A DNA stretch of 64,000 nt from assembly GCF_022458985.1 (NCBI RefSeq), contig NC_061789.1, forward strand, positions 10,546,357 through 10,610,356, read 5' to 3'. The position numbers and the translations under genes are program-made. Within the stretch, counting starts at the first letter, position 1; every line of letters begins with the position of its first letter. Below are positions 45,640 to 63,832 of this stretch, piece after piece. The notes beneath the pieces are model-generated. The model saw only the letters and a list, made by a program, of their open reading frames with translations, did not search any database and was not told the DNA's origin. Source of the stretch: Mugil cephalus. Its lineage: Eukaryota; Chordata; Actinopteri; Mugiliformes; Mugilidae.

Positions 45640-45807
45640 TCATTGATTGTAGAGGGACCGCTGCTCCCAGGGCATGGCCTGGATGGTGCGTGGCACGGGG
45701 GAAGGCTTGAGCGTGGGCGCTCCGTTCGGATGGAGGGAGTGGCCGATGGGGTTGATGGTGGTGAGGGGCCGCTGGGGGGCCAGAGAGAAAGTGTCCTGGT
45801 GCTTCGG
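45640..45807 (-). CDS. Zinc-finger gene last coding exon
   Basis: 168 nt including the TGA stop at 45642-45640. The acceptor is GACGCTCTCAG|CCGAAG, phase 0, fitting the exon 6 donor. It encodes PKHQDTFSLAPQRPLTTINP and ends PRTIQAMPWEQRSLYNQ. An overlapping 210-residue ORF in another frame is a shadow. The C-rich 3'UTR follows; no polyadenylation signal was chosen. Confidence 0.78.
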   Translation of the reverse strand, partial: PKHQDTFSLAPQRPLTTINPIGHSLHPNGAPTLKPSPVPRTIQAMPWEQRSLYNQ

Positions 45808-47342: not shown

Positions 47343-50300
47343 AAGGTGTTTGTGTTGACTTTGGTGTTTTCACACGTGTGGTTGGAGCCTCAATAACGTG
47401 TTAAAACACTAACGTCACACAAAGCGAAGCCAGCATCTCCCACGTTCTACAAAGTAAAAACTCTTTATCGACACCAGTGACTTTGACATGTACTCTCTAA
47501 TTTCAAACTATTCAGATTTAGGGAGATGAACAGTGTTTCTGATGTCATTTAAAACGGATGTTGCAGATTCCAACCCGAAGACTTGAATAACCCAAATATT
47601 TAAAACAAACAAACAGAAAAAAAACAACTTGATGCATCTGTGAAGTCAAATGGCACGATTCATGTACAGCCCTCAGTGCAACAGTGAGATGTGAAGCAGG
47701 GAGAATGATTATCATGAGAGACGGATCAAGTTAGCAGCTCAGCCCCAGGTTAGTCGTGTTAGAGAGTCTCCTACCGCCAGAGGGGATCCACAGCTCACAG
47801 GAAACCAGATAACGACCTATAGATTTAGTCTGTTGTTTTTCTCAGAAGGCCACTGGGAGTATGAGCAGGGAAAAGTTACCATACTAGTCTAAACCCAGGT
47901 CAGTGGTTCTCTTAAAAAAAAAAAAAAAAAAACTCTTCATGCCTGAATGATAATTAGCATTAATAATAATAATAATAATAATACTACATGTTTTATCGTT
48001 TTAATTGCAGTTTTTGAGCCAGGATTGCTGATCAAATGGACATATTACACTAAACACTAACAGCTGACGGGTAAAGTTAAGATGAACCAGCTAACATTAG
48101 CTTTTTTGTTCAGTTTTTCAGTTCATATATATATATATATATTTAAAAATCACAATTACAAGTTTCAGAGTAAACGACCGGCGAGCTCCAAAATTAATAA
48201 GATTTCTCACATTTAAAGGACTCGTTAATGACTCAATTTTGTGGGGGAAAAAAAATGGTGATGATGCCCCTCGAAGGGCTACTAGATACTTTCTTCTAAA
48301 TACATAATTTTTCCCGAGTCCAAATTTCCTCAGAGTTGTTCACGACATGTTCACAGTCCCAAAATTAGATGAACCTGACCCAGGGACTGAGGTACAACAC
48401 CGGTCAAAAGTTTTAGAACAGCACGCAAGTATCCTCTGGTATAGTTGGGTCAGGGCCTCATCCTACAGCAAGATAATGACCCAAACCTTTAGTCCAAGCT
48501 AAGCTAAGGAAGGTAAGGAAGCTAAGGAAGCTAAGGAAGCATGGAGTGGACCATGGCCCAGTCTCTAGATATTAAACTCATGGACACAAGAGTGAAAGCA
48601 AAGCTACAAGTGCCGCACATTTCTGGGAACTTCTGCAATGAAACTGTGAGGAAAAATATTTGATTTCCGTTTTTAGAAAGAAAGAATGTCACATCAGCCA
48701 CAGAAGGTTATTTTGATGAGTTGACAGTTCAGAATATATTTTTAGATATATATATATTAACTTCTGTTGTTTATTTGGTCTATGCTTTTATTTCAGAGTA
48801 AAATGAGACATTAAACTGCACACATTTCAATAAAAAAAAGAAAGAAAATAATAGTGTTCTAAAACCTTTGACCGGTAGTGTAATTAATAGCAGCGTATAA
48901 ACATATTACTGCCCATTTTTATATTGTGTGTGCAGCAAAAGTCACTTCATTTAAAATTAGTTTTTAATATAAATTAATTAAAAAGACAAAAAAAATTACT
49001 GACGTTGTGTTTAATATTCAAACTGGAATTTAAACCATTACTTACAACCTCTATTATTTCTGTTGGTTTTCTCTTTGTTGTTTTGCTACGTTTCAACAAT
49101 CTACTTCCTATCTTCATCCTAAAAGCTGCCAAATTAATTGATTCATAATAGTTGCCTCCGTAATTATAAAATATCACTGTAATAATTACAGCGACATATG
49201 TTTCATCTCCAAATTGAAGGAGACCGTTACCAGGCGTCTACTGTTTCTCCTCTAATATTTCCCGTGTCAGCGGTGACTAAAGCCCTGCGCTGTTAGAAAG
49301 CATTAGCCCCCCTCTCCAGGTGTTAGTAGGTGGACAGGGAGAAGAGGCAGCTAGCCAGCAGATAGCGAACAGCGGGTGTTGTGTGTGGGGCGGTGCTCTC
49401 TCCTACCATGGGGTTGGCGCTCAGCCTAGTGTATCCCGAGCTCATCTCCTTTACCTCAGGCACCAGGGGCTGGAGCAGGGAGTAGGAGGAGGACGGGGTG
49501 GCGCTGGAGGAGGAGACGTGTTTGCTGGAGGACGAGCTCCTCATGCTCTGCTGGCTGCTCTGAGAGGACACTGAGCTTGGACGGCCCTGCTGGCGCACAC
49601 ACACACGCACAAATCTCAACACTCTTAATGCCAACCAGTAGAAGTTTATGTATTATTTTTTTTTTTTTTGCCTACCTGGTGGGGGTCAGGCACAGACTGG
49701 CTGGCCACGCCGCCGCCCGGCCCTCCCTGGGACATCGGTGAGACGCAGTGGGAGGGAAGAGGTTCCTGTTGGCCATGTCCTCCGTGTTGCGCTTGCATCA
49801 TGGAGCTAGCATTGTTCTGCTGTTGTTGCTGCTGCTGTTGTTGCTGCTGCTGCTGCTGTTGACGTCGAGCGTTGGAGAAATTGGAGCGGCGACCGCCAGA
49901 CTGGACGGAGAGAGACAAGGGAGACGAGGGAGTTAAAAACCCGTCCCCGTCGTCGCGGCTGCGCTTCATGCCAGTAACGCATGCTTGTAACTGAGATAAT
50001 ACAGATTTGAGGAGTGGTGACGGATGAAGGATGATACTGTAATCTTATAAATCTCCACACTCAAGTTTCCTTCTCGAAGCTCGGTGCTGCTCTGAGTTTA
50101 TGCGTCTCAGCTCTGCCTCACACTCGTCTCCTCCCACTGCCCTGTCCCTCTTTACGCCTGTCAATGTGAGCGGATGGAGTGGTCAACTTGCACGTACACG
50201 CACAAACAAGCAAACGAACAAATACACTCACACAGACATCGAGTAACAAACCTAGAGCCTACGACTAAATATAATCTGACAACTCGGATATAGTCGACTT

Positions 50301-53300
50301 CACAACTTTGGGGATTTTTGGACGACGTCAATTTAAATCTCAAGTTCAGAGACTAGACACAACGATCAGGCATAACATTATGACCACCTTCCTAACATAA
50401 AACAGTTGTGACTCATCAGAGAATAGACGTGGGCCTTCTGAGGGCGTCCTGTGGTGTCTGGTAACAGGAGGCATTTGGGTCCTATGGGTTGAGGGGAGGG
50501 GCCTAAAAGTTACAAATAATTAACGCTGTGGATATTTTGAGCAGTAAGTAGGCGCCTAGAGATCACCCTCCACTCAAAGGCTGCTTCTTTACTCGATTTT
50601 GAATTCAAGATGTCAGCGGCAGAGTCAAAAACACTCAGGAATCCCATAAAGATCACGTCTTTATTTACAGTCCTGGTGTTTTCACTCTCTAAACATTTAT
50701 GCTGCTGTTCTACGAGTGTACGGACAAAATCTGAGAAACTTTGTGGAACTGAATTATTCTTCTTATTCATTCCACATGTGCTTTTCTTGCAGGGGAAAAG
50801 TTACTGCATCTACATCACAGTATATCGGCATGAAAATAAATAAATAAGCGCCTTTAAAGGGGCCGTCCCAAATCCTGATGAACTGGAAATACGTGGCCTG
50901 TGGACAATGTCTAAGCCACATTTATATACTTGTCTAGAGCTCCGTTAATCACAACGCCACCATATTGGCAGGAAAGCGCGCTTCTCTGATGACTATTTGG
51001 TCGACAACTGCAAGCAACTGACTCATTAACGTGGGGCTTGTTGTGCCCCAGGACACCTGGACAGTCGGGGACAAGCGAAGAGGAAATCGTTTCCCAAAGA
51101 TCCCACGAGATGGCAGGTGTGAAAATGAAGCGGTGAGATCCCTGAACAAACAGGTTTTTCTTGTATAGCGATCGCTTTCTATCAGGGACAGAATCCAGCA
51201 TTTTCCAGGAGTAATGCCTTGTTTATTTAGTTTTTATCGCGATGTCCAGCAGATTTCTCTTCATAGAGGCAAATCAGGCTGATGTTTACAACATGGATTA
51301 CAGAGGAACGTTGCACATGCAGCATTAAAACTACTCACAATGACAGAGAAATTAGTTACTGCGATTACGTTACAGTGGATAATATCTACACGTAGATGAT
51401 AAATTAGACATTAATTTAAACTGGAAATGTCATGAAAGTTATAAGGCATATAACAGTGATTAGCTCGTTACATTATGCTGCCGCTATGACAGCGTAACAG
51501 TGACGAAGAGACTCTTTTTTTAAGCTACAAACTCCAAAACGGGGCGTTCATCTGGACGCCTCTAGTCTCTTGTTTGTTTTCAATTAAAGTTAATATATAT
51601 CCAGATACGACAGGTCAGGAACATTGTCACCGTTGGTGGTTTTAATGCTCAAAAAAAAAAAAAAGCACAGCTGGGGCACGATAAGAGTCTGTGATATATA
51701 ATATGTTCAGTTTTGCCTAGTACTGGTCATTTTGTATCTGTTCATAGTGATGTAAACTCTGACGGCCTGAAATCAGCGCTGCCAACATGGCGGCGTCAAC
51801 AAAAATGTCACGGAGCTCTATGGGCAACATGTTCGTCTGGGGTTGGCAGTAAAATTGAGCCTGAATTACGTCAAATTAAAACTTTTGTGTGTGGAATTTT
51901 AAATGTGATGGTCAGACACAGGCTCTTGCATTTGCTTTAAAGTTGAAACCAGACCAGTTACTGGGATTTTCCCCCCCGACCATCACATCCAAAACACCTG
52001 AACTAGTTGGCCCTTCCTCACAGCTCCACCTCAGTCTGCCTGACACACAACAACAACAACAACACACACACACACACAAGCGCGCACACACACGCTCACG
52101 CTCACACCAACCTGGTTTTTGGCCGCGGCGCTGCAGCGGTGCTGGGCCAGGTCCAGCATGGTTCGGTAGCTCTTAAAGCAGGACGGGCAGTTGAACCGGT
52201 TCTTATGAACCAACCCGACGCACACGCAAGACACACAAACACACACACATACACACACATATAAGTTTGGATTACTACACTTGTATGGAAAATCCGCTGA
52301 TTCGTATTCGTCCTGATATCTGAGCCCTGACCCTTTCCCTAAACTCAGCCTAACCCTGGTCTAACCCTAGCTGCACAGCTTTTACAACAGGAGGCCTGAC
52401 GAAAGGTCCTCCGGGTCACTAGTGGCTGGAAGGAGGACAGAGGGTCAAGGAAAAACATGCCACACTCGCGCAACATGCACACTTTTCATCAAACAATGCA
52501 ATAAAATCATCATCAACGCTCACACATCAGTATTTCTGCACAAATAACACGAAACCAATATAAATTTAAACCCTTTTAACTTCACGTACCCGCAACACAT
52601 TTCACACAACCAGTCGTTTGCTCGTCGCAAAAAGTGCTACTTACCCCGTGACACAAATGTGTGAAACAAATTGTTAAAATGTGCTAAAATTGGTACCAAC
52701 AGTTTACAACCTGTGTGTGTGTGTGTGTGTGTAGGTTCTGAAAGAAGGCAACACTTAGTGCCAGTTTGCGGTCTTTAATCGTTTACACGCTCTAGCGTGC
52801 GAAGTGAGACGTGGCATTAAGTGCGTCTGCGACGGTTGAATTATTAGTTTAATGCGACGGAAAGAGGCCGCGCGGCGCGAGAGGACGGCGTCTCTGACGC
52901 TCACGGTGAAAACTGGGCACAAAAACGTCGGTTGCAGCCATCGAAAGCACGGACGTCTTGTTCAAGCTTGTCCGTAATAACGTATTTTACACTTAATGAG
53001 CGCAGCCTGTCGCGTCGCTCCTCCTGAACTTCACGTTTACTCGCGGAGCGTTTTACTGCAGCGACAAACTGAAGCAAAACTAACACACTCGCGACATTAA
53101 AGCAGTTTCGCACGCGCAGCGTCGTGTGGTGTTGCTCTCCAAGAATCAGCTTGGGTTCCTGTGGTGTGCCAGATAAAAGGCATTTAGAGCGAGGAGGAAG
53201 TACACTCTACTCATTTGTATGTGTGTTTTTAATCTATAATTCTCCCAACTCTTGCTCAAATACGACTTTCACACAGATGATGATTCCAGCCAAACCTTAG

Positions 53301-56300
53301 TGCTGGAGGGAGGAGAGGTGTTATTTTACAACACGCCTTTTTTTCTAAAAAGACGCCGTTCACTTCAACTGTTCCTCTGAATAGTTCTGATGTAATAAAT
53401 CTGGTGATATGCGACGTCTGTGGTCGGTGATTCATTCTGTTCCACGAATACAAAACAGAAAGATTCACAAGAGGAGCCGACATATCTGCGCCAGGTTCGG
53501 AAGGTGCAAACTTGAAGGTGAGGTTTCTCGAAACAGCTTTCCAGGTCACGGAGTATCGTGTTTATTTAATTGTCGCAGCGTTGTACAATTAAATTTCACT
53601 GGCGCATTTAAGTCCGTCTGTGTTGTTTTGGACTCTATGACCCATTTTTCCGATCATGACAGTTTGAGGGTCGGTTCAGAGCCAGAGTCTAACATTTAAA
53701 ATACTCATAAACGTCACGTTCGACCTTCGTCGCATCGATGCAGAAGAGTCAGCAGCCGTGTTTGCAGCGTCACTTAATTGTAGTTGCTTCTGTCGTAAGC
53801 GTGCCGACATAAAAATGCAACTTTGAAATGCAGACGGTGGCTTTTTGCTGTGTCTGGCCCTGGCACTGCTGGTAAATGCATACAGATAAATACGCTGTTG
53901 TGGTTAGTGACTAATTCACATTGGTGCGAATGAGCCATCTGTGCCCTTATTTGGCTCTTTGACAAGGGTTTATGAAGAAACATCTGTCACTTTACGCCTT
54001 TAATTAAAGAGATCACATTTACTTAACGGTTCATGGAAAGTTGTGCTTCCACAACAGTTACTGAAGCAGTGGGATTAATGCTGGTGGTAATTTCAGTGGA
54101 GTTTCAACCAAATTTTCCACAAACTTTCTGAAAACAGCACGGAGGCGCTGGAGGAAGAAACGTGCCGAGGACATATTACAAGGATTAAAATATTGTATCA
54201 TCCAAAAACCGCAAAGATTTAAGTTAAAATCCTCTAGTAAAGAGTAAAGACTGAAAGTTTGTTTGAGGAGCTTCGCTGCATCTGTGGTACAGATTAGTGG
54301 ATATGTGCGACACAGCCTTTGTTGACAGCTTGAGCACCACTGTGTTAATTATCCCTTCCTAAAATAAAATTTTTGACTGTCACTAAGTGTATGTGTTCAT
54401 CCTGAAACGAAACACATCTAAAAAAAGGCCTTAAATTTACACATAACATTTTCCTCGAATATAAATCACGCAAGTACGTTTTTAACTCTCACAGTCAAAG
54501 AGACGTCCCACTGGCAACATGAATTAAGCCTACGCCATATCATCATCATCAGCATCGCCGCTCTCACACACAAACCTACCTGGTTGGATGCAGCAGCGGT
54601 GCAGCGGTGCTGAGCCAGCTCCAGCATGGTCCTATAGCTCTTGCAACAGGAGGGACAGTCGAAGCGGTTCGGCCCGTCGTCGTGAATCCTCTGGTGGTTG
54701 CGGAGGTACCGGGCCAGGCGGAAGGCTTTGCCGCACAGGTCGCACATGTAGCGCTTCTGACCGTGGATTCGCATGTGGTTGCGCAAGGACATGTAGTTGG
54801 TGTAGGGCTTGCTGCAAAAGTCGCACCTGGTGGCGAAAGTGTTTATTATGTAGAGTTTACCGAAAGACGTTTAACCTCAAATCGAAACGACAAAAGCCCC
54901 AGACCAGTACCTGAAGTCTCCAGTCTTGTGGGTGAGCTTGTGGTTGAGCAGGGAGCTGGCGTGCTTGTAGGCGCAGCTGCACAGGTCGCAGACGTACGGC
55001 CTCTCGTCCGACTCCATGTCGTCGGGCGCCGTCGTCGCCGGCTGCGGCGCCGGCGCCGGCGCTCGAGACTCCATGGAGAGACTCGAGCTGGAGAGTGACG
55101 CTGAGGAGAGGCTGGACGTGGAGAGGGCTGCCGAGGACGAGGGGAGCTGATCGCACCAGCTGATGGTCGAACTTGGCTGCGTCAGAGGAGAGGGAAACGT
55201 TAATGCAGACCGTGATGCGTGTAGAGAAGCAAATAACACTCTTACGACTTTTTTTTATATGATATGTACTTGTCCAAGAGATAGGAATTTGTATACGTGA
55301 AGTACTGGATAAAGAAGGAAAGGAAGCGGCTGCAGTCAGATCTTAGTTTGACATACAACTAAAACTGATACGACCATTTTTAAATGCCAAGTGTCTGCGC
55401 TTGACACAACCTGACACCCACAGCTTTTTATACATTTCATCAGTTCACTGACCTACTCAGTCTCCTCTACTCCTTTTACAACCATCACCTGACACTCAGC
55501 AACCTGCAGTTGATTGCCACAATTTGGGGATTAAATTAGAAAATAATCATTATGCTTTATGATGCCCACTGTGCAAAAACTGTCCAGGATTGTGTGTATG
55601 TATATATATATATATATATTATTACGGCATCCGGCTAAATACTCATGAATGCATTCTGATACAACAGTTCTACACTGAATCCCAGCTTTCAGGAAGGTGA
55701 TGATTCATCATTTGTTTAAAATAACAGCTGTGTTTTCATCTGGAAGCTGTGCTTGGTACAACAATTTAATCTAAATGCTTTGCAGACACATTTCTCGAAC
55801 CACAGACCACATCCTCCAAAGTGATCATAAGATTACATAAAGTCAACATTACAGGAAGTCACGAAAGCAGATTTGTTCCTGAAGTAAATCATATTATGAT
55901 GGCTCCGTTTCCACTAGTGCACCTAATGTACTGGTAAATTATTGTATGTATCTTCAGCAAAAGACTTATAATATATATATATATATATATATAAAAAAAG
56001 AAAACAGCAAGTGATCCTGGAAAGTGATTCTGACACCTGTCTCCCAATGATGACAGATTCAGCGACCCGTGTTGTTATTGCTAATAGCCCCACAAACTGC
56101 ACGTGTTTCCAACAGTGGAAGACAGGTAGCGGAAAATGTGTTTTTTTTTTTAAACATATAAATTGAATTGTGTTAGTGCCCGTGCAGATAATCTTTGGGC
56201 TGAGAGCGACCATGAATGAACCGCACAGTCTGGCATCACAAAGGGGTCTTTCAAAGTCCTCCGCGGGGCGTCTTCCGCTCCCGTTTCCTGCGGGGCAGCC

Positions 56301-57072
56301 CGGCCGTGTTTACTTTGCGCTGTTAAGCTAACAATATCGGAGGCCCCGTGCGTGCACTTGTGCTCAAATAAACCTTTTTTGTGGTTTGCTTCAGTGTACG
56401 CTGAACTTTATGAACCCAATATTGCACGCGGCTGTGTCTTCAGGTAAAACGTAAAATGTTTTTTCCTGTCGTTCCCCGTTCGACTGGAGCAGCGAGTGTA
56501 GCCTCAAGTTAGCTCTAACTCGGTGATGCTTGGCTGCTTTGACGCTATTTTCTTAATTATTCTCATTGCTTTGCGGCAAAGCAACACCACAGCACCGGAA
56601 GCAGCACGTCTAAATCCACCATTCCCCCTTTTAGAGGCATAATAAAAACAACACGAAGGATAAAACCCATTACTAGCCGCTTAGCTCGGCAGCTAAGTCA
56701 AACTAGGCCAGGATTCGCTCAGCATGACGATTAGCCGAATGCTAACGATGCTGTTCTGGAGCATATCCTGCAGCCTTGGACCACCCAGTGCTGCTAAACT
56801 GAATTGCCGACACACAATAACATTAAAAACAGATGCAACGCTGCGTGTTTAGCTGGTGAAATGTTGCTCCGTTAGCCGGACCGGGCTCGCTGGCTAACAG
56901 CGGTGGTGGTGGTGGTGGTGGCTGCTGGTTTTCTTACTCCGGTGTCGTTGGGGTCCTTTTTCCAGAACAATTGGGAGCAGTGGCCGAAAGACTCTGTCGA
57001 TGTCACATAGTTCACTCCGTTTCTATCTTGAAAGTCTCCATGCGTGCTGCCGGTATTTGTCCTGGCGTACAT
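45640..57072 (-). CDS. C2H2 zinc-finger protein with duplicated finger-tail exon and Gln tract
   Basis: A presumed nuclear DNA-binding protein, rebuilt as seven exons whose phases all agree: 57072..56938, 55176..54911, 54826..54580, 52201..52112, 49900..49676, 49586..49407 and 45807..45640. That gives 436 residues, or 406 if exon 4 is skipped. Exon 1 starts at an ATG preceded in frame by TGA. A Ser-rich stretch (about 55-78) and an Ala/Pro patch precede three canonical C2H2 fingers: C108-C111-H124-H128, C135-C138-H151-H155 and C162-C165-H178-H182. A fourth module (C191-C194...H207-R-C209) is truncated, and exon 4 repeats it (C221-C224...H237-R-C239). A 15-Gln tract (260-274), a Ser-rich segment and a short conserved-looking tail ending SLYNQ follow. 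Linkers are not TGEKP. I do not recognise the orthologue; ZNF646- or ZNF574-type multi-finger proteins have similar finger spacing, but this is not a firm match. Confidence 0.85.
46257..46702. mobile_element. MITE with ACTACAGGGCAAA terminal inverted repeats
   Basis: Left end TACACTACAGGGCAAAAATT then TTGGAAGCAA; right end on the minus strand CACTTCAGGGCAAACGTTTG then GAAGCTA. Ends pair over about 28 bp with a few mismatches, about 440 bp apart, near TA dinucleotides. This is typical of non-autonomous Tc1/mariner relatives. There is no ORF inside. Confidence 0.6.
46918..47308. mobile_element. MITE with CACTCAGTRTGTTTAYATG ends
   Basis: Left end CACTCAGTATGTTTATATGT; right end on the minus strand CACTCAGTGTGTTTACATGC. 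Near-perfect inverted ends enclose about 350 bp without an ORF. Elements whose ends read GTTTACATGCAC are common in vertebrate genomes; the superfamily (perhaps hAT-like) is not settled here. The right end abuts the CTG repeat. Confidence 0.6.
47311..47339. repeat. (CTG)n, CAG in transcript sense
   Basis: Nine to ten pure CTG units in intron 6 of the zinc-finger gene, touching the right end of the MITE at 46918-47308. Confidence 0.9.
48393..48884. mobile_element. Internally deleted Tc1-like element
   Basis: Left end TACAACACCGGTCAAAAGTT then TTAGAACA; right end on the minus strand TACACTACCGGTCAAAGGTT then TTAGAACAC. The ends match a fish Tc1-like family. Near the left end, CAGCAAGATAATGACCCAAA would encode QQDNDPK, the transposase motif containing the second catalytic Asp region. 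The rest of the transposase is deleted or decayed, so the element is dead. Confidence 0.7.
49407..49586 (-). CDS. Zinc-finger gene exon 6: Ser-rich exon
   Basis: 180 nt (60 codons), phase 0 to 0. The acceptor is a tandem CAGCAG, so a form three bases longer with an extra Gln is possible. The donor is CCCATG|GTAGGA. It encodes a Ser-rich region and a more complex end (LLQPLVPEVKEMSSGYTRLS). The intron before it is only 89 nt. Confidence 0.82.
49676..49900 (-). CDS. Zinc-finger gene exon 5: poly-Gln exon
   Basis: 225 nt (75 codons). The acceptor is CTCCGTCCAG|TCTGGC and the donor is CCCCACCAG|GTAGGC, phase 0 at both ends. It encodes SGGRRSNFSNARR, then 15 Gln from mixed CAG/CAA codons, then a Gln/Gly/Ser/Pro-rich stretch (NNASSMMQAQ...SVPDPHQ). 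The interrupted codon pattern argues for a selected Gln tract rather than a pure unstable repeat. Confidence 0.85.
50356..50500. mobile_element. Solo end of a Tc1-like element
   Basis: ATCAGGCATAACATTATGAC then CACCTT is the terminal repeat of a common fish DNA transposon, followed by about 120 bp that resemble its subterminal part (GGCGTCCTGTGGTGTCTGGT). The opposite end is absent nearby, so this is a truncated remnant in intron 4 of the zinc-finger gene. Confidence 0.5.
52047..52079. repeat. (CAA)n/(CA)n repeat beside duplicate exon 4
   Basis: In transcript sense a (GU)n followed by (GUU)n tract 33 nt or more downstream of the exon 4 donor. With the GU-rich stretch 52211-52262 on the upstream side it brackets the exon. 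Confidence 0.85.
52112..52201 (-). CDS. Zinc-finger gene exon 4: 30-codon duplicate of the exon 3 tail
   Basis: 90 nt, phase 0 to 0, acceptor TTCATAAG|AACCGG and donor AAAAACCAG|GTTGGT. It aligns without gaps to the last 30 codons of exon 3: 25 of 30 residues identical, 10 codons changed silently and 5 changing the residue (Asp to Asn, Cys to Phe, Glu to Asp, Thr to Ser, Ser to Lys). The Cys, His and final Cys positions are kept. Both splice sites are weaker than those of exon 3 and both flanks are UG-rich, suggesting a regulated cassette exon. Expression is not shown by the sequence. Confidence 0.65.
54580..54826 (-). CDS. Zinc-finger gene exon 3: fingers 2, 3 and module 4a
   Basis: 247 nt. 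The acceptor is CGCCACCAG|GTGCGAC and the donor is TCCAACCAG|GTAGGT, phase 0. It encodes finger 2 (CDFC...LRNHMRIH), finger 3 (CDLC...LRNHQRIH), a DDGP linker and CPSC...LAQHRC. That last module has His-x-Cys in place of a full zinc ligand pair. Its last 90 nt are the source of exon 4. Confidence 0.92.
54911..55176 (-). CDS. Zinc-finger gene exon 2: Ser-rich region and finger 1
   Basis: 266 nt. The acceptor is TCTGACGCAG|CCAAGT and the donor is GACTTCAG|GTACTGG, splitting an Arg codon. It encodes a Ser-rich run, an Ala/Pro patch, an acidic DDMESDE segment and finger 1 (YVCDLC...LLNHKLTH). Confidence 0.88.
55640..55930. mobile_element. Partial MITE, TTAGGTACAC family
   Basis: The right end CTAGTGCACCTAATGTACTG (55915-55934) is a diverged terminal repeat of the family at 34350, and CCACAGACCACATCCTCCAA (about 55800) matches its subterminal block. 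The left end is not identified. It sits in intron 1 of the zinc-finger gene. Confidence 0.4.
55970..55993. repeat. (AT)n microsatellite
   Basis: Twelve AT units in intron 1 of the zinc-finger gene. A second AT run lies at 55599-55619. Confidence 0.85.
56938..57072 (-). CDS. Zinc-finger gene coding exon 1
   Basis: 45 codons from MYARTNTGST to KKDPNDTG, with donor ACCGGA|GTAAGAA in phase 0. An in-frame TGA four codons before the ATG makes this the first possible start. The segment has no known domain. A (GGT)n run begins about 16 nt into the intron. Confidence 0.75.
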
Positions 57073-60942: not shown

Positions 60943-63832
60943 ACCTGTTTCAGTCTCTTGACTTCATGCTCCATTTCCATCTCCCTGGTCTTTGCGTTAT
61001 ACTCAGACAGCCCCTTTCCTTTTCCAGGATGCTCCATCTCCAGCTTAAACAGCTGCAGATACTCCAGCTCCCGGCGGAGATCATCGATCAACTACAGAAA
61101 AAAAAAAAGATTCGGTTAAACAGATGTCTGGAATATTTGCCATGTTGACGTTAATACAGATAGTAGTGCAGTGTCTAATATTATGCTAATTATTATAAGG
61201 AAGCTGTCTACAACAAGGGGACCCCACCTCCTGCATAGACTCTTTTTCCTTTTGGAATGCATTGCGATTGTGCCAGAGCTTCTCCATGATCTTCCTGTAC
61301 AGATCCATCTCATCTTTCAGCCTTAGACTGGTGTCCTCCAGCTTGTCAGTCATCCTCTGCTTCTCCTTCAGAGAAAAAAGAAAAGAAGCAAATCAAATTA
61401 TCACCACTTTCTCACACGACCCTTTATTTAATCACGAAACATCGCTGAGAATATTTTGTTGTGTCGTTGTGTAGTGTCATGGCAAAAAAATGTAAAGGCA
61501 ACAATGATGGAGACAAATAAAATAAAACACGAGCCAAAAAACAAACAAACAAAAAAACTTTACCTCATTCCAGACGGCACAGAACATAACTATTCGTACA
61601 CCTGTTACTTTTGTATATAAATAAAGGATCGATTTTAGGATAATTATAATACAGTATTTTAAAATAGGAGCAGCTGTCATCAAACTAAGGGACGATAAAA
61701 CAAGCCTCCGTTTAATCAGGACAGAGAAATGCTAAATATGGAGCCTAAAAGAAAAAGTTTGTAACAAATATTCATCAGTTTTATATTGATCTATTAAAAA
61801 TATGAGGGATTTTTTTGCTCCTTCTTAGAATTTGTCATAGGCGCATTGTAATAAATTATGATGTCATCTGCATAGTGGCACAAGGTAATTATTGACCAAT
61901 AGGATGTAAGTGAATACAGGGTGATAGTGGTCAAATTCTCAAATAATTGCCAATATTATATTGTGTGGTAGCCTTTCAGTGTGTACACTTCATTTTATAT
62001 TTAAATACTTCTTTAACAATTTGAGTTATGTATTTACTTATTTATTTGAGTTTTGGTCGCTGTCTGATCGGCTGCATATTTTGAATAATTCAATTAATGT
62101 TCCAAGACTTCAGCTCAACGACTATGATGTTTTTAATTCTCATAAGAGTAACAGCTGTAGCTACAAAAAAAAAGATCCAAGCTAAGGATGACTTCCACTC
62201 ACCTGGTCCAGTTTCTCTGTCTGAGACTTGAGTCTGCACACGTTTATCTTCATCTCTCCATTTTCTTCTTCCAACTGTTGAACCCTGCGGATGCAGAAAC
62301 ACACAAAGACAAATATTATTCTGTAAAAGTCTTGTTCCCAGTTTGGATTTAATGCATCGCGTGTGAGGAGCTGCGCTCTTCATGCCCTGATCAAACCATT
62401 ACTACGACTTATTTTCAGCGGGATATAATTGAGGTCTGACCAAAATAAAATCGTTCGTCCTTTTCATTTCTTTTTAAGACAAGGAGGGTGCAGATGTTGT
62501 CCAGGTGTTGGATTACTGTTGATCCCTCTCTTGGTGAGTTTACCTGTTACAGAGCAGGTCTCTCTCTGTGTTTCTGTCTCTCTCCATCTTGGTGTAAACC
62601 TCCCGGTGTCTCTTCATCTCCTCCTCCAGACTCTCTGCCGCCTTCGTCTCTGCATCCTTCACCTGCTCCTCCAGCTCGTGCACCCTGCAAACATGAACCG
62701 AGTGAGGAGAGAAAAAAAGAAAAAAGAAAAAGCATTACATGCAATGACTGACACAATGACCAGTAACATCGGCTTCAGACTCAGTTAGATGAGACAAAAT
62801 TACTTCCAGATAAGACGTCTTCATATATGGGAAATGAAGTTTTTCACATGCTAAACACAATTTGTAAAAAAAGCCACACTGAATAATCACATAAGAAAAC
62901 AAGTAAATGTGATACAGATGTGAGAAGGCATTTCATAAAACATAGTATAGAGTACAGGAATCACTGTGCACGTGTGGTTTCCTACCTGTGTACAAGATGT
63001 GTGTTCTCGTGTTTGAGTTTTGACTTGAGGTCACCGTTGGCCAGACTGTCGCTTTCCAACTCCGTCACCTTCTTCTCCAGGTAGCTGACCTGAGCGAGAC
63101 AACAGGAGTTTTGACTCACTGCATGCACAAGGCTATTCTTTACCATTGTTCCAAATATCTGATGTACATTACAAAATCATGAAGCTGCAGCTCAGTGCAT
63201 AAAAGCAGTATGTTCTGAATCCATAATAAATACAAAAATCACACCCAGTTTTCAGTTTATAGTTTCACAAATGAGAAAAAAATCTATGTGAAAGTGGAGT
63301 AAATTGTGGGAAAACACTTCTTCTGCTACAGCTTTTGAGCTTTAAGCACCTTCTAAGCTCATTATCTTTATTTACTACTACACTTTGTTTGTCCGGTTAA
63401 GTAGTTTTAATGGGATTAAGTCTAACTGACTTGCGGATCTTTTTGGCTAATCTAAGCTAATTCTGGTACAAACTCCATATTTACCGTACATACATACATG
63501 AAGATGATGTCAGTCTCACTTTTCTCAAAAGCAAAATGCTTCTTTAAAGCGTTATTCTGCACGGCTGTATCACGTCGAGTGCGAATTACTACGAGTTGAA
63601 TCTCATTTACCCGAGAGAAACCCGCAATAACTGGGCTACACATTTCAAAAACAGAGTCTTATGTCTCCAGAAAAAAGGTACAATGAGAGGATAGATTATT
63701 TGTATGCGTGCGCATCTTTGTACTTTTTCTGTGATGTCGAGGTCGCAGGAGTCGATGCTGTCTGTGAACAAATCCTCGGTGCTGCTGCCCTGACTGGAGC
63801 CGAACACGCTGTGGTTGGCCTGGAACAGCTGG
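60454..63832 (-). CDS. rab11fip4: rab11fip4 3' part: coiled coil and Rab11-binding domain
   Basis: Class II Rab11 family-interacting protein 4 binds active Rab11 (and Arf-type GTPases in the family) on recycling endosomes and works in endosome traffic and cytokinesis. Eight exons encode the last 326 residues: 63832..63724, 63089..62986, 62684..62544, 62284..62203, 61365..61228, 61091..60945, 60819..60676 and 60570..60454. All borders are GT-AG and all phases agree. The protein is heptad-rich coiled coil throughout, with family signatures CDLDITEK, LESDSLANGDLKSKLK, LKDEMDLYRK, DQNDDLNAQILSLSLYEAK and EIDNASRDE. The C-terminal FIP-RBD contains YMDKIILAILDHNPSILEIK. That sequence, with YMDK and AILDHN, fits FIP4 rather than FIP3 (YIDR, AIMETN). 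The N-terminal EF-hand region lies off the right edge. I cannot tell whether this is the a or b teleost copy. Confidence 0.93.
60614..60650. repeat. rab11fip4: (AAAT)n microsatellite in rab11fip4 intron
   Basis: Nine AAAT units within the 105-nt last intron of rab11fip4, filling a third of it. Confidence 0.9.
60676..60819 (-). CDS. rab11fip4: rab11fip4 exon (ENHKLRDQND...NASRDE)
   Basis: 144 nt (48 codons), phase 0, acceptor TTCTTTAG|GAGAAC, donor GATGAG|GTCAGC. It encodes DQNDDLNAQILSLSLYEAK and LAAEIDNASRDE, near-invariant in FIP3/FIP4. Confidence 0.94.
60897..60942. repeat. rab11fip4: (GT)n, (CA)n in transcript sense, at a rab11fip4 donor
   Basis: About 21 GT units ending directly at the splice donor of the exon 60945-61091. 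In the pre-mRNA the intron therefore begins GUCC followed by (AC)n. Confidence 0.92.
60945..61091 (-). CDS. rab11fip4: rab11fip4 exon (LIDDLRRELE...VKRLKQ)
   Basis: 147 nt (49 codons), phase 0. The acceptor is TTCTGTAG|TTGATC. The donor CTGAAACAG|GTCCAC departs from consensus at +3 and +4 and runs straight into a (CA)n tract in transcript sense. It encodes LEYLQLFKLEMEHPGKGKG and EHEVKRLKQ. Confidence 0.92.
61228..61365 (-). CDS. rab11fip4: rab11fip4 exon (EKQRMTDKLE...ESMQE)
   Basis: 138 nt (46 codons), phase 0 at both ends. The acceptor is TCTCTGAAG|GAGAAG and the donor is CAGGAG|GTGGGG. It contains the strongly conserved LEDTSLRLKDEMDLYRKIM segment of FIP3/FIP4. Confidence 0.93.
62203..62284 (-). 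CDS. rab11fip4: rab11fip4 exon (VQQLEEENGE...TEKLDQ)
   Basis: 82 nt, acceptor CATCCGCAG|GGTTCA, donor GGACCAG|GTGAGT. It encodes VQQLEEENGEMKINV and LKSQTEKLDQ, matching the FIP4 coiled coil. Too short to be found by ORF length. Confidence 0.92.
62544..62684 (-). CDS. rab11fip4: rab11fip4 exon (VHELEEQVKD...LLCNR)
   Basis: 141 nt, acceptor TGTTTGCAG|GGTGCA, donor TGTAACAG|GTAAAC, with split Arg codons at both ends. It is a highly charged coiled coil (EEEMKRHREVYTKMERDR). Confidence 0.92.
62986..63089 (-). CDS. rab11fip4: rab11fip4 exon (VSYLEKKVTE...LVHR)
   Basis: 104 nt, acceptor CTCGCTCAG|GTCAGC, donor GTACACAG|GTAGG, ending two bases into an Arg codon. It encodes coiled coil with the family motif NGDLKSKLKHENTHLVH. 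Confidence 0.92.
63724..63832 (-). CDS. rab11fip4: rab11fip4 exon (QLFQANHSVF...DITEK)
   Basis: 109 nt. The acceptor is CCTTGCAG|CCAGCTG, with its first base completing a codon from the exon outside the window. The donor ACAGAAAAA|GTACAAAG is weak, but its phase 0 joins perfectly to VSYLEKK of the next exon. It encodes an acidic Ser-rich linker leading into the coiled coil. Confidence 0.88.

Follow-up and report, generated by a model that had tools for sequence, protein, structure and literature searches.

A copied piece of a zinc-finger exon very probably works as a cassette exon in percomorph fishes

Exon duplication is well known to feed alternative splicing (PMC9741552). Going by the account in PMC2394523, the closest known case to the locus described here is the H2d exon of vertebrate COE/EBF genes. 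Like the fish exon, it arose in a transcription factor gene by tandem copying of an exon and is, in the model of its authors, a copy of part of an exon that puts both units in one protein, a new splice site restoring phase 0 (PMC2394523). The H2d exon acquired a new donor and is compulsorily included, whereas the fish exon kept its donor, acquired a new acceptor and is annotated in both isoforms; H2d also encodes a helix, whereas the fish cassette encodes a finger-like unit (PMC2394523). In piccolo b, zinc-finger-encoding exons were likewise duplicated in teleosts, percomorphs included, but what was amplified there, 8 to 16 times, is a whole single-finger exon, whereas the fish cassette is a piece of a multi-finger exon; the phrase ‘alternatively spliced’ is absent from the main text of that paper (PMC3484663). 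As in the fish gene, splicing of exons 4A and 4B of Drosophila serpent sets the number of zinc fingers, and an origin by exon duplication is presumed; the two serpent exons are mutually exclusive, however, and the alternate exon is described as poorly conserved and as carrying no known motif (PMC8844375). Tandem duplicated exon substitutions, as that survey presents them, resemble the fish exon in that most are ancient homologous exons whose changes are largely conservative, but they are mutually exclusive, whereas in the fishes both units occur together or the copy is skipped (PMC9741552). What sets the fish exon apart from these systems is a kept donor combined with a new acceptor, two isoforms that have both persisted, and inclusion in tandem. 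We consider it very probable that a percomorph zinc-finger gene uses the 90-nt block as a functional cassette exon, copied from the end of exon 3 together with its donor.

The window (the whole 64-kb stretch of DNA that was analysed) holds a coding model of seven pieces on its minus strand, the cassette block included:

56938..57072, minus strand: coding exon 1 (MYARTN...KKDPNDTG), ending in phase 0; placed by translation match to fish orthologues, its end set by the 45-residue N-terminus of orthologue P0001
54911..55176, minus strand: coding exon 2, first C2H2 finger; placed by frame, splice sites and orthologue match
54580..54826, minus strand: coding exon 3, fingers 2 and 3 and a fourth, C2HC-like unit; donor CAG/GTAGGT
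54580..54669, minus strand: parent block, the final 30 codons of exon 3 (NRFDCPSCCKSYRTMLELAQHRCTAAASNQ); placed by pairwise alignment with the copy
52112..52201, minus strand: 90-nt cassette exon copied from the parent block (NRFNCPSCFKSYRTMLDLAQHRCSAAAKNQ), phase 0-0
52112..52201, minus strand: splice sites of the cassette exon, acceptor ...CATAAG and donor CAG/GTTGGT
49676..49900, minus strand: coding exon 4 (SGGRRSNF..., Gln-rich), phase 0-0
49407..49586, minus strand: coding exon 5, long form
45640..45807, minus strand: last coding exon (PKHQDTFSLAPQ...SLYNQ, stop)

Joined from exon 2 onward, the exons are open throughout, with a single stop at the end. Exon 5 has a second donor at 49455 that gives a form 48 nt shorter, and both forms occur among fish isoforms; at the same exon (49407-49589) we also observed a CAGCAG acceptor, and differences between fish isoforms (VKEMSSGYTRLSANPM; one extra Gln) match the two donors and this acceptor. 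The top protein matches, at up to 94% identity over the whole query, come from fishes and are annotated as ‘zinc finger protein 646-like’ or similarly, a name that is the annotators' label. Pfam PF00096 finds three fingers, and in the form lacking the copy PF13894 picks up a fourth stretch too; it is with this fourth finger-like unit that exon 3 closes. On the same strand, upstream of the zinc-finger gene, the window has exons of a Rab11-FIP3-like gene (62200-63832; Pfam PF25450, E 1e-31).

The preliminary description of this DNA had claimed a second copy of the last 30 codons of exon 3, a block of 90 nt bounded by AG and GT in phase 0-0, and a gapless alignment confirms it: as reverse complements, 52112-52201 and 54580-54669 align over 90 nt with 0 gaps and 19 mismatches. 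An AG directly precedes the copy and a GT directly follows it, copy and parent both ending in CAG/GT. The distance given as about 2.4 kb downstream of exon 3 measures 2,378 nt from the exon 3 donor to the copy. The codon counts were reproduced as well, with 15 codons differing, 10 of them silent and 5 replacement (D4N, C9F, E17D, T24S and S28K), and no stop in either copy or parent block; the CxxC, His and Cys positions said to be retained are indeed there, all four putative ligands being present in the copy. When the 90-mer was searched against the whole window by blastn, the parent was the sole convincing match (78.9%, E 3e-17) and the runner-up spanned 26 nt (E 0.08), while a degenerate pattern built from both copies had 2 matches in the window and 0 in 100 shuffles. 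The blastn and shuffle results rule out a chance match as the source of the likeness.

Comparison of the flanks shows that the likeness stops after one further base at the 5′ end of the block and extends 17 nt into the intron beyond the donor (54670-54563 against 52202-52095, 108 nt, 78.7%). This asymmetry suggests that genomic DNA was copied, the segment together with its donor, and the cassette acceptor would then seem to be new, or to have lain at the breakpoint already. Past the donor, 13 of the 17 intronic nucleotides match; both stretches are GT-rich, so this part of the match could be due to chance. The cassette acceptor has an unclear pyrimidine tract and an A at -3. By a crude count its pyrimidines (11 of 21) equal those of exons 3 and 5, for which reason a weak splice site as a sign of regulation was dropped. 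On the minus strand, GT-rich tracts flank the cassette exon at 52042-52111 and 52217-52260; they could be candidate binding sites for splicing regulators.

Substitutions between copy and parent are far from what neutral drift produces. By the Nei-Gojobori method, copy and parent differ by 12.5 synonymous and 6.5 non-synonymous changes (dS 1.53, dN 0.098), and dN/dS between the two 90-nt blocks, a check that had been proposed at the outset, is 0.064. When the copy alone drifted neutrally to 19 differences, five or fewer replacement codons were obtained in 0 of 20,000 simulations. Letting the parent take silent changes only and the copy change freely gave five or fewer in 0.225% of simulations, and the joint outcome of at most five replacements, no stop and at least 10 silent codons in 0.02%. 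The earlier argument that neutral decay would yield mostly replacements is thus upheld by simulation. Since 56-60% of the neutral runs were stop-free, missing stops alone are no evidence of selection. We conclude that the copy has been under purifying selection.

To count isoforms we used a sample of 205 distinct related proteins from three protein searches, two of which contributed the best 120 of 203 matches (7,988 candidates scored, many of them probably drawn in by the Gln-rich stretch) and the best 120 of 157. Among the matches listed, 48 of the 205 proteins carry the unit in frame between exons 3 and 4. They come from at least 43 named species and one further source, and the last residues are the usual ones in 44 of the 48 and differ in the other 4. 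P0045 (Menidia) belongs to the 48 despite a model that seems to run on into intron; P0123 (Scophthalmus), with a partial unit in an odd model, was left out. A skipping isoform also exists in at least 15 of the inclusion species among the matches listed, confirmed in 15 of 15, these species having been chosen because both kinds of protein were listed. A further 113 proteins have the parent and lack the copy, but they include genomic open reading frame fragments running into intron and so do not amount to 113 skipping isoforms. Many of the isoforms are automatic predictions in public annotation. P0121, by contrast with the window, where the same exons take more than 11 kb, is a 438-aa inclusion reading frame of exons 1-6 on a contig of 2,006 bp, which must derive from spliced RNA, assuming introns like those of the window. 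The source tag ‘lgn’ we infer to denote assemblies of public reads. P0057 and P0094 (Lycodopsis and Anarrhichthys) show extra residues, DTGVAGRPLHRS, between exons 3 and 4, as if a further acceptor lay upstream of exon 4.

That the copy is a used exon, as first proposed, is supported by its in-frame inclusion across these species, by the skipping isoforms and by the cDNA-like contig. The accompanying statement that the arrangement is undescribed stands in part: our literature searches found no title or abstract describing the cassette exon among the matches listed, but public annotation already contains such isoforms, ‘zinc finger protein 646-like isoform X2/X3’ among them.

What the block encodes was at first taken for a second half-finger. 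This does not hold: with the spacing C-x2-C-x12-H-x-C the copy has a full set of four putative ligands and so amounts to a complete unit of the fourth-finger type. Classical C2H2 fingers space their ligands as C-x2-4-C-x12-H-x3-5-H/C, and the copy does not fit this spacing. On its own it also falls below the curated cut-offs of Pfam (15.3 against 25.2 bits for PF00096; 17.8 against 27 for PF13894). In an AlphaFold model of the whole protein, with an alignment of 50 of the 205 proteins, units 1-3 are predicted as ordinary fingers (ten-residue blocks mostly at 69-85 pLDDT), and the fourth unit and the copy as low-confidence helix with no classical finger. The copy alone, run as a single sequence, was predicted as one helix (mean pLDDT 79.9 in the best of five models, 51.7 in the worst). 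Structure as proof of a finger was abandoned, neither run being supportive; because AlphaFold gave no classical beta-beta-alpha fold, we call the unit finger-like and claim no zinc-finger fold.

The form C-x2-C-x12-H-x-C is not unique to this gene, given that P0146 and finger 1 of INSM1 (PDB 8jpy) have the same spacing. The INSM1 likeness is a sequence match alone and does not imply common descent; it scores 23 bits for the whole chain (E 3e-4) and is third in its list, behind the artificial multi-finger proteins 2i13 (E 1.5e-10) and 1mey (E 1.2e-6), which match via several weak repeats. P0146 and P0153, both relatives, contain four-unit modules whose last unit is of this form. P0146 has two of these modules, each with the terminal unit, and seems to run into intron at the place corresponding to exon 3.

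The pattern behind the 48 proteins demands the ligand residues and an upstream H-x-C, and because of the former the search was repeated with an alignment score that demands no ligand. This search could be applied to 162 of the 205 proteins (41 had no anchor and 2 too little sequence after it). It returned the same 48 plus P0123, with a gap between scores of 29 and 78. In these 49 proteins C8, H21 and C23 are present in 49 of 49, and C5 in 48 of 48 where it is aligned. At position 4 the copy has N or S and the parent D, in 48 of 48 each; at position 9 the copy has F or L in 48 of 48, where the parent has C or S; at position 17 the parent has E in 48 of 48 and the copy D in 47 of 48, the exception being the E of the mudskipper protein P0103. 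If the unit folded as a finger, this Asp of the second unit, against the Glu of the parent, would presumably occupy helix position +3. The tail has a mean pairwise identity of 95.3% in the copy against 73.5% in the parent (907 of 1,128 pairs, those of equal length). For the core the means are 98.1% in the copy and 99.6% in the parent, values aided by the search pattern, as the tail values are not. Copy and parent units have kept separate identities, with P0138 (see below) as one exception.

This conservation bears on the reading of the exon as splicing noise, in which inclusion and skipping would make no functional difference and conservation would reflect inclusion that is merely tolerated. 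The two AlphaFold runs, in which the fold of the unit is unproven, lend it something, but noise would not maintain a near-invariant copy in 48 proteins with its copy-specific residues fixed, and we regard this reading as improbable.

Copied exons can also act as mutually exclusive ones, as the overview of such exons indicates (PMC9741552), so that here the copy would replace the parent unit in some transcripts. P0138 (Nothobranchius pienaari), in which the first half of the parent is joined to the second half of the copy, followed by exon 4, reads as if one unit had replaced the other; the candidate origins are an assembly or template-switch chimera, gene conversion, or a true substitution. 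Yet both units are present in 48 of 48 inclusion proteins, a count to be read knowing that the pattern (through its upstream H-x-C) and the looser check both demand the parent side, so that a protein with the copy alone would go uncounted. As exon 3 ends with the parent block, replacement would moreover need a donor inside that exon, and none was noticed in the proteins inspected except P0138. With 48 proteins carrying both units, a mutually exclusive exon is unsupported, and we hold it to be very improbable. That the block is a decaying relic, an unused tandem copy left to drift, is hardly credible, for although such relics are reported in mammals (in the account of PMC2718932) and the acceptor described above would suit one, its dN/dS and the simulations depart from the neutral substitution pattern, and the inclusion proteins of the named species and the contig of P0121 carry it in an open frame.

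A functional cassette exon is thus the reading we carry forward. The named species with inclusion are, we take it, all percomorphs. Lineage was checked for two of them, the toadfish Thalassophryne (Batrachoidaria) and the goby Eucyclogobius (Gobiaria). A search meant to trace the exon beyond percomorphs covered proteins of about 119-378 aa, as set by query length, and gave 86 matches among 121 candidates, the full set of matches being listed. Single predicted proteins of relatives in Gadus morhua, a non-percomorph whose model breaks inside the parent unit, and in Lucifuga dentata, a percomorph (Ophidiaria), lack the unit, but a predicted protein can miss an exon that the genome has; the Centroberyx relative is a piece that starts after the place of the cassette unit. 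In the ranked matches (best 120 of 157), the lowest score of a protein with both units is 131 bits (the odd model P0123 has 116), and proteins with one unit start at 89 bits. By this ranking, a non-percomorph inclusion protein (about 229-728 aa) would be expected above the line unless strongly diverged. We infer that the cassette exon arose at or near the base of the percomorphs, and since toadfish, gobies and many other percomorphs have it, the event can be dated.

The proposal of a cassette exon formed from part of exon 3 and its donor is supported by the alignment, the isoforms and the selection on the copy. In the course of events we propose, a segment with the last 30 codons of exon 3 and the donor was copied into the next intron, where the AG at the 5′ edge of the copy serves as acceptor. 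With donor and phase coming along with the copy, a 5′ acceptor alone was needed. As the exon 3 donor, the ends of the block and the exon 4 acceptor are all in phase 0, including or skipping the 90 nt leaves the reading frame intact. Inclusion places two near-identical finger-like units in tandem after three C2H2 fingers; less certainly, adding this fifth finger-like unit may alter the reach or the partners of the finger array. To the fuller picture, in which an exon piece cut at a finger-unit boundary became, with its own donor, a cassette at the percomorph base and a putative regulated switch by which a DNA-binding protein has either four or five finger-like units, the tail of the copy being held more tightly than that of the parent, we give about even chances.

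The locus offers a clean natural case of part of an exon turned into a new optional exon. Medaka and turquoise killifish each have an inclusion protein among the matches listed, and the existence of two isoforms makes the effect of a single added finger-like unit testable in either species.
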